Below, piece after piece: positions 10,267 through 28,561 of a stretch of 44,306 bases of DNA. Every line of letters begins with the position of its first letter. Within the stretch, counting starts at the first letter, position 1. The DNA is from a virus. Under the pieces are notes generated by a model that had not been told where the DNA came from, did no database searches, and saw only the letters and a list, made by a program, of their open reading frames with translations. The DNA is taken from IMG/VR virus record IMGVR_UViG_3300045118_000300, positions 1 to 44,306 of that record. One strand, written 5' to 3'. The position numbers were made by a program, and so were the translations under genes.

Positions 10267-10461
10267 ATGATTAGAGTAAGAGCTTATAGCCAAAAGATTA
10301 TAAAGGAAGCCGTTGCTAATCAACCAATTGGCTCGCTAAAGAAAGTGTTAAAGTCGATAAATGGAAGAGTGGAAAAACCAGAAAATGAAACTTGGGTAGA
10401 ACACCAAAAGGAAATGGAGCGTCTTTTCGCTCTAAAACAGGCTTTTATGAGTAAGAATTGA
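10267..10461 (+). CDS. Small hypothetical protein
   Basis: This 64-residue basic, mostly helical protein of unknown function starts after an A-rich leader without SD. It is the last gene before the strong promoter at 10458, which overlaps its stop codon. No domain is recognised. Confidence 0.5.
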   Translation: MIRVRAYSQKIIKEAVANQPIGSLKKVLKSINGRVEKPENETWVEHQKEMERLFALKQAFMSKN

Positions 10462-24507: not shown

Positions 24508-24792
24508 ATGTATAAAGATAAACGAAAATGGAACGAGTATATGAGTAAATACAGGAAAAAAAATAAAGTTTTATTTATCCCGAAAGATGACTTTACACTT
24601 TATGAGTTAAGGGTGTGGATTTACAAATACACTTTGTTTAATGGGGTTCTTCCCGATTATATTCATATGAATGAAAAAGGAGTCCAAAACTTTAAAAGTC
24701 TCTTAAAGGATAAACATACCGTAAAAGAAAATTTGGAAATTAGTGGAGTGAAAATTAAAAACATTGATAGATGCCAAAAGAAGAAGAAATAA
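24508..24792 (+). CDS. Small basic protein upstream of large terminase
   Basis: This has 94 residues from ATG 24508; an upstream start at 24385 would run through the promoter and is unlikely. The N-terminus is basic (MYKDKRKWNEYMSKYRKKNK) and is followed by an alpha/beta domain. It overlaps the large terminase by 22 bases. A DNA-binding partner of packaging is possible; no family is recognised. Confidence 0.5.
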   Translation: MYKDKRKWNEYMSKYRKKNKVLFIPKDDFTLYELRVWIYKYTLFNGVLPDYIHMNEKGVQNFKSLLKDKHTVKENLEISGVKIKNIDRCQKKKK

Positions 24793-27700
24793 GTTTGGCC
24801 AGCATAAGCATACACGCCTGGATTAACGAGAACAATATCGTGAACGAAAAGGGCGACCCCATTGAATTTAGGGAGCATCTTTTTTTATTTGACATCTATT
24901 CTGACGAAAGTAAAAATCTCGTTGTTATGAAACCTGCCCAGGTTGGTCTTTCAACTTTGCAAGTATTTAAAACAATCTGGGACTCTTATAGGAGAAAAAT
25001 AGACTCCATCTACTGCGTTGATGAAGAAACTGAAATTCTTACTAAAAGGGGATTTTTAAAACAGGAAGAGCTTTTAGATGATGATACTATACTTACCCTA
25101 GATACCGAAGGAGTTTCCATGTGGACAAAACTGGAAGAAATTTTCAGGAAGGAATATAGTGGTGAGATGATAAATTTTGAAGCGAGGAACTTCTCTGCCT
25201 GTGTTACCCCAGGACACAGATGGCTAGTAAGGCAGTATTATGTCCCTAAAACAAAGAAACAGGAATATTTCTTTGTTAAAACTGATGACTTTGGAAAGAA
25301 GAATTTGTTTATCCCCAAAAGATTATTAAATCCTCTTGTTTGTTCCGAATATAATGATGATTTTATTAAGTTGTTGTCTTGGGTATTTTCTGAAGGATAT
25401 TATTGTAAAATAAAGCATAAACACGACTGGTCTATTATAATTACCCAATCGTTCAAGAAAAACAAAAAGTATTGTAATGAGATAGAAAATATATTCAAAA
25501 AGTTGAAATTAGTATATAAAAGAATGGTTAATTATAGGGGTGACTGTTATGAATATAGGTTTGCTTTTGAAATGGGAAAATTTATAAAGGAAAGTTTCCC
25601 TGAAAAAATACCTACTCCAGAATTTATTTCTTCTTTATCTACAAGACAGGCAAAGATTTTTATAGACGAGTTTGTAAAAGGGGACGGATGGACAGATAGG
25701 ACTAATACCAAAGCAATAATACAAAAGTCAAAGAAATGTATTGATGTTCTCTGTATGGCGGCTGCGATAGCTGGTTATTCACCGAGTATTGTAAAGCCAA
25801 GTAAAAATGGTTGTTGGACACTGAGGCTTACTCAATTCGAACATATATATACCAGTGGCCTTAAATCAATAAAAAAACAATACAAAGGGATTGTGTGGTG
25901 TCCTAGAACTAAATATGGAACGTTCTACGCAAGAAGAATGGGAAGATGTTACTGGACTGGAAACACTTTGCCGACATACAACGATGTAAATGTGTTCGTT
26001 AGCGGGAAAGTCAACCGTTTAATTAAAAACAATCCTATCTTATTGGAACTCACCAAAGACAAGGACACTATTGAGCAGAAACAAATTGGTGACTCTATGA
26101 TTTATTATAGGGGGACATTCAATGAGAGAGCCGCTATTATGATACCAGCTGACGTTATTATCCACGATGAATTGGATAGTTCCGACCAGAAAAACGCCTC
26201 TTTTTATGTGTCCCGTATGCAGCACTCCAAAATCAAGGAAATGAGAGTTTTTTCCCACCCGTCAGTTGAGGGATTCGGGGTTTCCCACTACTACAACAAA
26301 TCCGATAAAAAAGAATGGTTCATAAAATGCCCTCACTGCAAGGAAGGACAATTCCTTAAATGGCCAGATAACGTTGATAAAGTTAGGAAGATATTTATTT
26401 GCCAATTTTGCAAAGGAGAATTGGGAAGAAACGACAGGAGAGTCGGGGAATGGAAGCCCACCGCCAAAGGGAAAAAATGGTCTGGCTACCACATTTCCCT
26501 CCTTATGTGTCCCTGGGTAACCGCCAAAGAAATTATTGAAAAGAGTGAAGACGAACAGACCGGCGTCCAGTTCTTCTACAACAAGGTTTTGGGACTTCCC
26601 TACACTGGAAGCGAATGCCTAATTACTTCCGAAGATATTTACCAGAATATCCAAACCCAAGGCACTAATTTACAGGAAGAACCGGTCGTAATTGGGGTGG
26701 ATACGGGACTGGCTCTACGCTACGTAATCGGCAATCAACGGGGTATTTTCCATTACGGGGAATGCGCCAAATATGAGGACTTGGAAGCGTTCCTTACCCG
26801 CTGGAAACGCTCTGTTATGGTAATAGACGCCGGCGGAGACATTGTAGGGAGTAGGGCTTTACGAGAAAAATATCCTGGCCGTGTGTTCCTTTGCTATTTT
26901 GCCAAAGACCGCAAAACCTACCAATTACTCCGCTGGGGGAAAAATGACGACGAAGGAGCGGTAGTCGCCGACCGCAATAGAATAATTCAATTAGTGGTTG
27001 ATGAGTTTAAGGACAAACGCCTTGCTTTATGGGGGACAAGGGAAGAATATGCCAATTTGGTAAAACACTTTTTAAACATTTATCGGGTGGAAGAAGAAAA
27101 CAAAATTGGGATTAAGGAATTCAAATGGAAGAGGAAAGGACGAGATGATTGGTGTTTAGACGGAAATTCCATTATTCTAACAAAGAACGGTAATAAGAAG
27201 TTAAAAGATGTAACAGAAGGAGAGTATGTTCTTACCAGAAAAGGTTGGAATAAGGTTTTGAAATCGGGAATTACAAGGAGAAACACCGAAGTTTTAGAAG
27301 TTTTGTTTTCAAACGGAAGTAAATTAATAGCTACTCCAAATCATAAAGTGTGGGTGGTAGGAAAAGAGTGGACTAGACTTGACACATTAGATTATAATGA
27401 TATAATACTTGCAATTAAACCAAATAAATGCAAGTCGAAACAATTGTGTTCAACGGAATTAAATTTAGAAGGTATCCAGAGTCAAAACACAGGACGCATA
27501 GATGCTACTTCTCTCCAGGAGGAAACCATAGGAAAAGAGGAATTGGACACTTACACCAAGAAATTTATCGATATTATTTTGGAAAAATTCCTAAAGGGTA
27601 TTGTATCCACCATAAGGACGAAAATCCGCTTAATAATACGTTGGATAACCTTGAAATACAAAAGAGGGGAACACACCAATCATTTCATAATAGAAAATGG

Positions 27701-28355
27701 TTGTCGGTTCCAGAAAATAAGGAAAAAATGCTTAAACATATTAGAGAAATACATAAACTTCCACAAACCCACGCTTGGAAAAAAACAAAAAAAGGAAAAG
27801 AACAAATGCGAAGAAACGCAATTAAGGCATTTTCTATACCGCCTAAAAAATTTATTTGTATTGAATGTAAAAATGAATCAGAAACGAGAAGAAATAATGG
27901 CGGTAAATTCTGCTCAAGAAAATGTACTTCAAGGTGGGCATCAAGAAAAAGAAGAAAAGAAAAAAAGGACTTTATATGGAAAATTTGTGTCATTTGTGGA
28001 AACAAATTCTTTACTAATAAATATTTTAAAGTCAAAACCTGCTCCTTACTATGTGCGGGTAAAAAGATTAGTAAAACTAAAAAAGAAAAGGGATGTTTAT
28101 AATTTGTCAGTTGAAAATTGCCACGAATATTTTGCCAATGGAATATTGGTTTCGAATTGTTTATCAACTTGCTACTTCAGGATTGGAATGAGCCGGTATG
28201 GAAGTGGTGGTAGTATAGTTGGTGGTGATAGTAGTGGTATAGTGATGGAAGGGATAAAAGAAGGAATAAGAATGAACCATTCGGAGTGTAGCAGTTTTGA
28301 CACTTCAAAACTCATTATGCCTGACCCAAATCAGGACGATTGGCGTAATTTTTGA
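24771..28355 (+). CDS. terL: Terminase large subunit interrupted by two inteins
   Basis: The 1194-residue precursor gives a 542-residue extein after removal of residues 82-398 and 795-1129. The extein is the packaging motor and nuclease: Walker A-like KPAQVGLST (54-62), Walker B VIIHDELD (462-469), a Cys-rich CPHC...CQFC site (about 510-545) typical of the GpA-type family, and nuclease Asp residues in GVDTGLA and VIDAGGD. A third acidic site, RDDW, sits exactly at intein 2. Intein 1 interrupts the segment SIY/TLPTYND after Walker A. Both lie at conserved catalytic sites, the usual homing targets. The reading frame is uninterrupted through both inteins. Confidence 0.9.
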   Translation: MPKEEEISLASISIHAWINENNIVNEKGDPIEFREHLFLFDIYSDESKNLVVMKPAQVGLSTLQVFKTIWDSYRRKIDSIYCVDEETEILTKRGFLKQEELLDDDTILTLDTEGVSMWTKLEEIFRKEYSGEMINFEARNFSACVTPGHRWLVRQYYVPKTKKQEYFFVKTDDFGKKNLFIPKRLLNPLVCSEYNDDFIKLLSWVFSEGYYCKIKHKHDWSIIITQSFKKNKKYCNEIENIFKKLKLVYKRMVNYRGDCYEYRFAFEMGKFIKESFPEKIPTPEFISSLSTRQAKIFIDEFVKGDGWTDRTNTKAIIQKSKKCIDVLCMAAAIAGYSPSIVKPSKNGCWTLRLTQFEHIYTSGLKSIKKQYKGIVWCPRTKYGTFYARRMGRCYWTGNTLPTYNDVNVFVSGKVNRLIKNNPILLELTKDKDTIEQKQIGDSMIYYRGTFNERAAIMIPADVIIHDELDSSDQKNASFYVSRMQHSKIKEMRVFSHPSVEGFGVSHYYNKSDKKEWFIKCPHCKEGQFLKWPDNVDKVRKIFICQFCKGELGRNDRRVGEWKPTAKGKKWSGYHISLLMCPWVTAKEIIEKSEDEQTGVQFFYNKVLGLPYTGSECLITSEDIYQNIQTQGTNLQEEPVVIGVDTGLALRYVIGNQRGIFHYGECAKYEDLEAFLTRWKRSVMVIDAGGDIVGSRALREKYPGRVFLCYFAKDRKTYQLLRWGKNDDEGAVVADRNRIIQLVVDEFKDKRLALWGTREEYANLVKHFLNIYRVEEENKIGIKEFKWKRKGRDDWCLDGNSIILTKNGNKKLKDVTEGEYVLTRKGWNKVLKSGITRRNTEVLEVLFSNGSKLIATPNHKVWVVGKEWTRLDTLDYNDIILAIKPNKCKSKQLCSTELNLEGIQSQNTGRIDATSLQEETIGKEELDTYTKKFIDIILEKFLKGIVSTIRTKIRLIIRWITLKYKRGEHTNHFIIENGCRFQKIRKKCLNILEKYINFHKPTLGKKQKKEKNKCEETQLRHFLYRLKNLFVLNVKMNQKREEIMAVNSAQENVLQGGHQEKEEKKKRTLYGKFVSFVETNSLLINILKSKPAPYYVRVKRLVKLKKKRDVYNLSVENCHEYFANGILVSNCLSTCYFRIGMSRYGSGGSIVGGDSSGIVMEGIKEGIRMNHSECSSFDTSKLIMPDPNQDDWRNF
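25014..25964 (+). mobile_element. Intein 1 with LAGLIDADG homing endonuclease
   Basis: It covers TerL residues 82-398 (317 residues). It starts with Cys in CVDEETEILTKRGF (block A). Block B holds CVTPGHRWLVR with the TxxH motif. The endonuclease domain has two LAGLIDADG-like helices, LLSWVFSEGYY and FIDEFVKGDGW. The C-terminal end GTFYARRMGRCYWTGN is followed by Thr+1. The penultimate residue is Gly rather than His, a variant seen in phage inteins. Splicing should yield SIY-TLPTYND. Confidence 0.85.
27379..27406 (+). promoter_or_regulatory. Consensus promoter inside intein 2
   Basis: TTGACA (27379-27384) and TATAAT (27401-27406) are separated by 16 bp; a second TATAAT is at 27393. The predicted start near 27413 leaves a leader of about 15 nt before the HNH ATG at 27428. 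The same bases encode the intein residues LDTLDYNDII. Confidence 0.7.
27428..28102 (+). CDS. HNH homing endonuclease encoded out of frame within intein 2
   Basis: This 224-residue protein probably cuts intein-less terL alleles. The N-terminal part has FNGIKFRRYPESK, then a domain with LHQEIYRYYFGKIPKGYCIHHKDENPLNN (shown in parts: LHQEIYRYYFGKIPKGY and CIHHKDENPLNNTLDNLE), the classical HNH nuclease core at about residues 42-75. Two Cys clusters follow (CIECKNE...FCSRKC and CVICGNK...CSLLC, about 140-215), likely zinc-binding DNA contacts. An in-frame TAA directly precedes the ATG, so it cannot be reached by frameshift from upstream in the same frame. It overlaps intein coding sequence over its full length in the +2 frame. 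Confidence 0.85.
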   Translation: MQVETIVFNGIKFRRYPESKHRTHRCYFSPGGNHRKRGIGHLHQEIYRYYFGKIPKGYCIHHKDENPLNNTLDNLEIQKRGTHQSFHNRKWLSVPENKEKMLKHIREIHKLPQTHAWKKTKKGKEQMRRNAIKAFSIPPKKFICIECKNESETRRNNGGKFCSRKCTSRWASRKRRKEKKDFIWKICVICGNKFFTNKYFKVKTCSLLCAGKKISKTKKEKGCL

Positions 28356-28420
28356 CATTTGAAATTTTGTGGTAATATACACTCATTATGAAAACAAACA
28401 AATTTATAAAATTGACTTTT

Positions 28421-28458
28421 TGCTATAATAAGGGAACGGTTTTTTCGTTTCCTTTTTT
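28421..28458 (+). promoter_or_regulatory. Extended -10 site followed at once by terminator-like hairpin
   Basis: TGCTATAAT (28421-28429) is an extended -10. GGGAACG (28432-28438) and CGTTTCC (28446-28452) form a 7-bp stem (one G-U) followed by six T. The hairpin more likely ends terL transcription; whether the -10 is active is uncertain. The following 28459-28744 has no gene. Confidence 0.45.
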
Positions 28459-28561
28459 ATTTTACAATTTTGGCAAAACCTGTTTTTCTTAAAATCTTTT
28501 CAGTAAAAAAAGACCGTTCAGAAGTAATCTTTGCGGGGGATAAATGGTAGATGGCGAAATT

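Follow-up and report, generated by a model that had tools for sequence, protein, structure and literature searches.

How can a homing endonuclease gene reside inside an intein and yet not be part of it? The question is raised by the gene for the terminase large subunit (TerL) in the viral record IMGVR_UViG_3300045118_000300 (IMG/VR), whose whole stretch of 44,306 nucleotides (hereafter the window) was analysed. Inteins are described as having an endonuclease domain in frame or, when split, an endonuclease gene standing by itself in the gap. In the window, the second of the two inteins of TerL (intein 2) encloses a complete HNH endonuclease gene read in another frame. We interpret this locus as a mini-intein of a phage TerL housing an independent, overprinted HNH homing endonuclease, and assign this reading a probability of about 0.85; the intein would then be spliced, the HNH gene translated and terL alleles cleaved by its product.

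The layout announced by the original prediction is present in the window: the HNH open reading frame (ORF) lies wholly inside intein 2 and out of frame with it, as confirmed by ORF analysis, Pfam and PHROG, and its HNH core, its two cysteine stretches and a TAA directly before its ATG are all found in the sequence (table 1). The intein frame lies one base after the HNH frame (HNH+1), so that, seen from the intein, the HNH gene is in frame +2, as had been stated. The HNH product matches Pfam HNH_3 (E 6e-11) and, over residues 23–221, the HNH endonuclease family phrog_15471 (E 7e-28). Among 48 aligned sequences, H61, H62, D64, N69, N70, N74, H83 and H87 are invariant, as are C144, C147, C162 and C166 of the first zinc-ribbon-like stretch, the second ribbon being present in most. 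AlphaFold models the product with a mean predicted local distance difference test score (pLDDT) of 95.4; a Foldseek search of this model against the PDB gave nothing significant, and the nearest solved structure by sequence is the HNH homing endonuclease 1u3e. With its other frame and its own stop, this HNH is not an in-frame intein domain. Indeed, as the gene keeps its own start and stop, a place inside the intein is possible only out of frame. The stop had also been placed inside the region encoding the C-terminal splicing domain: the two do overlap, but by only approximately 8 nucleotides (block F starts at approx. 28095).

The surrounding element has the hallmarks of an intein, namely Cys1, T61/H64 (TxxH), a terminal N335 and a Cys at +1, and Cys1, H64 and N335 are invariant among 44 aligned inteins; a Ser precedes N335, where His is usual. 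Pfam Intein_splicing matches it with an E-value of 9e-15, and the NCBIfam N- and C-terminal splicing regions match as well, so that the splicing motifs predicted at both ends are borne out. Intein-less relatives read RDDWVHATLYW at the insertion place. Intein 2 lies in one continuous ORF, and hence is not split into two ORFs. In the AlphaFold model, the ends fold with a pLDDT of 97–98 (93–98 over residues 1–90, approximately 98 over residues 301–335), whereas residues 92–295, the overprinted part, mostly score 38–70 and appear as an unfolded linker; read in the intein frame, the overprinted stretch gave no Pfam match exceeding the curated cut-off and none to PHROG or NCBIfam families. Foldseek aligns the folded part with the gp41-1 intein (E 2.6e-6) and also with hedgehog Hint structures (Hint-fold matches at E 3e-6). 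Intein 2 is thus predicted from its model to adopt a Hint fold, and would be expected to undergo protein splicing. These strong motifs and the Hint fold at both ends, together with an insert wholly open in the TerL frame, also argue against removal of the insert as RNA, that is, as a group I intron carrying an HNH ORF and only incidentally resembling an intein. Phage group I introns do often carry HNH ORFs; however, no Rfam match with E ≤ 0.5 was found in positions 26900–28500, and none in four relatives, which leaves this explanation with a minimal probability.

Table 1. Features of the terL locus in the window.
Feature	Position	Strand	Basis
Terminase large subunit (gpA-type) gene with two inteins	24771..28355	+	PHROG terminase large subunit E 7e-83; Pfam GpA_ATPase E 3e-13
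Intein 2, 335 residues, interrupting the C-terminal (nuclease) part of TerL after RDDW and before CLSTCYFR	27153..28157	+	Intein motifs, Pfam/NCBIfam matches
N-terminal splicing part of intein 2: Cys1, block B ATPNH at 27330, block N4 TRLDTLDYNDII at 27372–27407	27153..27425	+	
Promoter-like TTGACA-N16-TATAAT inside the intein coding region, ending 21 nucleotides before the HNH ATG	27379..27406	+	12/12 matches
HNH endonuclease gene overprinted on intein 2 in a different frame; 224 codons, beginning with ATG and closed by its own TAA	27428..28102	+	
HNH core HHKDENPLNN, HNH residues 61–70	27608..27637	+	
Two Cys-rich zinc-ribbon-like stretches, C144/C147/C162/C166 and C187/C190 plus later cysteines	27857..28075	+	
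C-terminal splicing part of intein 2: blocks F and G, DVYNLSVENCHEYFANGILVSN	28092..28157	+	

Intein 1 of the same TerL (25014–25964) interrupts the ATPase part after SIY and before TLPTY, in a continuous frame. LAGLIDADG-like motifs are visible in it by eye, without confirmation in Pfam or PDB searches (phmmer against the PDB returned nothing). Residues 79–266 of TerL also match phrog_85.

Could the intein frame have stayed open by chance? The TerL ORF is open across the entire HNH ORF, which the original prediction held to be very improbable by chance in AT-rich DNA. We fixed the HNH residues, shuffled synonymous codons and counted the stops arising in the intein frame: the window has none, against 4.8 expected (P = 2.5e-4). 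In 57 embedded HNH genes, mutually less than 50% alike, no stop was counted where 147 were expected, although the ‘embedded’ class, here as in the 63-locus survey described below, is partly defined by an open ORF. A chance ORF was rejected on these two results. In the same relative frame, 13 free-standing HNH relatives have 86 stops (86.7 expected), and eight others (split or presumed split forms, and locus L082) have 83 (77.7 expected). Individually, free-standing relatives, most of which adjoin terminase genes, show 1–14 stops in the frame that is open in embedded forms. When an open ORF was not required, 80 HNH loci were preceded by an intein N-terminal motif: 72 were open to the HNH end, and in each of the eight closed ones the HNH gene separates the two halves of a split intein.

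The overprinted layout was found in more than 100 phage sequences, in both alternative reading frames. A tblastn search of phage records placed the HNH within genes whose annotation reads terminase large subunit, and the same relative frame within a stop-free intein was observed in Acinetobacter phage Highwayman, Tetrasphaera phage TJE1 and Rhodobacteraceae phage LS06, as well as in an unannotated gut phage contig and an IMG/VR locus (L002). In three named phage genomes with this layout, the HNH gene is missing from the annotation. A profile survey of IMG/VR and phage loci yielded 63 distinct loci, including the window, with both splicing ends in one ORF, and in none of the 63 was the HNH in frame with the intein; the survey began from an embedded query, and the share of embedded forms is not their natural frequency. 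Beyond these, six loci with a weaker C-terminal motif and locus L072 were confirmed by reading, and three further overprinted inteins occur among TerL relatives. In total, this +1-type layout is present in approximately 70 diverse related loci.

This recurrence bears directly on the possibility of an assembly or sequencing artefact, in which two indels would mask a normal in-frame HNH domain. The source is metagenomic, and in-frame HNH domains do exist in other inteins, such as that of the dCTP deaminase of phage CL131 (PMC6293099) or that of a Woesearchaeota deoxyhypusine synthase (L161:1606-3885), a conventional counterpart with an in-frame HNH_3 domain. However, about 70 independent loci share the out-of-frame layout, Highwayman, TJE1 and LS06 have it too, the HNH stop precedes the intein end in those loci, and a second group uses the other frame. 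An indel, proposed at the outset as the finding that would overturn the layout, is excluded by its recurrence in independently sequenced phages, and an artefact is accordingly refuted, its probability being negligible.

The second group (L082 and relatives) comprises 44 loci among L165–L210, including a few copies of one contig or near-copies, in which intein and HNH share one ORF in the other frame (+2). In this group, 0 stops are seen in +2 versus 8–11 expected, and 8–14 in +1; a locus from a Planctomycetota assembly (L157) is likewise +2. The layout was also retrieved from bacterial and archaeal assemblies (L150, L151, L153 and L162), which presumably represent prophages. All 10 structurally varied hosts of embedded inteins that were scanned are terminases, and many C-exteins display a nuclease motif of the D-A-x-R-Y type. 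Embedded, split and free forms are interspersed in the HNH tree, whose well supported branches force at least five changes of the embedded label; overprinting thus arose, or interconverted with other forms, more than once. Homologues without a conserved open overlapping frame, the other refutation proposed at the outset, are not what the survey shows: that frame stays open in the approximately 70 +1-type relatives as in the 44 +2 loci, and the prediction of an intein whose endonuclease is an independent overlapping gene holds in both. It is probable that these loci represent a third, widespread design of mobile intein, with the endonuclease overprinted in a continuous intein, at least two origins in different frames, its own translation signals, and descent linking it to the free-standing and split-intein forms of the same HNH family.

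The family also shows other arrangements. One terminase (L065:1-2832) contains two inteins, each with its own overprinted HNH gene. In Lactobacillus phage CL2 (KR905067; L012:393-2709), the annotated terL ends in the intein N half, while the C half and the TerL tail form a small ORF after the HNH gene, apparently an unrecognized split-intein terminase; Vibrio phage 1.238 (L010) and several IMG/VR contigs are arranged in the same way.

Alleles with and without the insert were compared. The terL flanks of Highwayman (57% of the query) are 99.5% identical to those of the intein-less Acba_21, and 15 of the 15 mismatches in 1302 nucleotides of terL fall within −163 to +12 nucleotides of the insert. 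The sole differences between the two genes are therefore the insert and a surrounding mismatch patch of 175 base pairs, the mark expected of homing repair. Highwayman has the Cys required at +1 where Acba_21 has Leu, and its HNH DNA matched no other phage record. For the terL family to which the +2 group belongs, the intein is present in 34 alleles and absent from 38; flank identity reaches 99.6%, and at least 12 gains or losses are forced on a tree from which two of the 38 intein-less alleles were left out. As to the TerL group of the window, 50 of 53 relatives have neither intein nor HNH in the sequence compared, and the other three all have an overprinted intein; the intein-less relatives share approximately 54% TerL identity, presence/absence and flank conversion being shown in other relatives. 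In these sequence comparisons, intein and HNH travel as one unit.

The same comparisons bear on a different role for the HNH protein, in which it would not be a homing enzyme but would assist the terminase in DNA packaging, its place inside terL being regulatory. HNH proteins acting in packaging are known, for example in HK97-like phages, and free-standing relatives adjoin terminase genes in BP10, EauM-23, PAE1, SN1, Shemara and FBPa53. Nevertheless, most relatives of the window TerL do without both elements and those with the intein all have the HNH; no HHxD..NN motif was found in the locus of the second-group intein-less alleles; and the conversion patch, the repeated gain or loss and the homing enzyme as nearest solved relative all speak against such a role. 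So does the altered HNH core (HHKN, HIDH) of three overprinted copies (L268, L269 and L276), in which both frames are still open; these may be decaying endonucleases. A packaging role is consequently considered improbable.

Whether both frames are selected, as originally proposed, was addressed through substitution patterns. Close pairs of the +2 group give a non-synonymous to synonymous (N/S) ratio of 0.13 in the HNH frame; in the intein frame it is 0.90 for changes that alter the HNH and 0.73 for those silent in it (few sites), with stop-making changes depleted by construction. In the +1 group, most changes fall at HNH third positions (intein second positions), as in free-standing genes. HNH fourfold sites changed somewhat less often than terL fourfold sites of the same pairs (181/371 versus 674/1060), a weak extra constraint; neither the +1 nor the +2 pairs revealed strong constraint at the protein level on the linker in the intein frame. 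These patterns indicate that, in the second group, the HNH frame is strongly selected as a protein, whereas the intein linker is kept stop-free and nearly neutral. The proposal thus stands for the HNH frame, and for the intein frame mainly in that stops are avoided (N/S of approx. 0.7–0.9).

Signals for separate expression were sought at the family level. The HNH start codon is ATG in 66 of 71 cases and lies at intein residue ~89 (interquartile range 86–92), the usual endonuclease slot. Shine–Dalgarno matches of at least five bases precede 32% of the HNH genes versus 19% in synonymous shuffles (maximum 31%), with a small upward bias since the best match was chosen where several starts were possible. 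Promoter-like sites with at least 9/12 matches precede 58% versus 31% in shuffles (maximum 42%). Perfect TTGACA/TATAAT sites number three in the window against approximately 0.07 expected, the other two being at 10458 (+) and 28739 (−). The sigma-70-like site before the window HNH was rejected as decisive evidence, its signal coming mostly from the conserved amino acids of block N4, and the promoter-like enrichment is kept only at the family level.

Under the overprinted-endonuclease interpretation, the intein frame would give a TerL precursor whose two intein ends fold into the splicing (Hint) domain, while the intein middle (~204 residues) would be a filler linker that need only lack stops. 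An internal ATG in the other frame would yield a 224-residue HNH endonuclease with zinc ribbons, an enzyme that probably cleaves terL alleles lacking the intein, at their insertion site or close to it; repair would then copy intein and HNH gene together into the cut allele. Several points weigh against this interpretation. Free-standing relatives have about eight stops in the frame required to be open, which leaves the route into an essential gene unexplained. The conversion patch is clear in one close pair, the L242/L246 pair offering no mismatches near the insert to test. In the window itself, the promoter-like site is not significant alone (P = 0.065 given the encoded amino acids), and no Shine–Dalgarno sequence precedes the HNH gene. 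As for the route, a split-intein intermediate, in which stops are harmless until fusion, is possible, as is entry in a GC-rich phage, where free copies can have as few as 1–2 stops (L013, L015 and L071).

The missing Shine–Dalgarno sequence, together with the few altered HNH cores, would also suit an ordinary mini-intein in which the HNH gene is the remnant of an old insertion that is no longer expressed. However, the window HNH has all the invariant residues, the HNH frame is conserved in the second group, substitutions in embedded +1 pairs fall where they do in free-standing genes, and Highwayman points to recent movement; a remnant is likewise considered improbable.

How far, then, does this arrangement depart from known systems? 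An out-of-frame HNH is not wholly new. In the ShiLan domain of phage DNA methylases (Arsenault, Gosselin and Gogarten 2025, PMC11855218), an HNH lies out of frame in a host-gene insert without in-frame stops; its scattered distribution suggests homing, and a similar insert in phage Pacc40 has a free-standing relative beside the host gene. That host is a mycobacteriophage methylase and the insert has no intein motifs or self-splicing element, whereas the present case involves a real intein with a predicted Hint fold from both ends, terminases and two frame types. Mobility, splicing blocks at both ends and an endonuclease slot between N4 and F are also found in large inteins whose homing endonuclease is in frame, but the present endonuclease, read in a different frame from a start to a stop of its own, does not belong to the intein that is spliced out. 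Fractured genes, with split inteins and a free-standing endonuclease gene between the halves, were reportedly described by Dassa and colleagues in 2009. Such an arrangement with an HNH gene is known from polB of phage MIJ3 (PMC6892783), and the present HNH family adopts it in eight loci, including Lactobacillus phage CL2; the inteins described here differ in being one continuous chain with the HNH overprinted on it. I-HmuI (PDB 1u3e) shares the HNH motif but belongs to a phage group I intron. Mycobacteriophage TerL inteins (PMC5050341) also show the terminase to be a favoured intein host, but all lie in the ATPase domain, whereas intein 2 interrupts the nuclease part at the C-terminal end. Searches of an open-access library with few subscription papers or preprints turned up no description of an HNH gene overprinted within an intein. 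What is new is the combination of an out-of-frame HNH gene with a real intein, and its breadth.

A selfish gene and a splicing element thus share the same bases in different frames, within essential packaging genes of many phages, and standard annotation overlooks the overprinted endonuclease. Testable questions follow, on the translation of the inner gene and on how an essential gene can take up the insert and escape fatal stops. These loci also provide a large natural set of long overlapping genes in which one frame appears constrained as a protein and the other only kept open.

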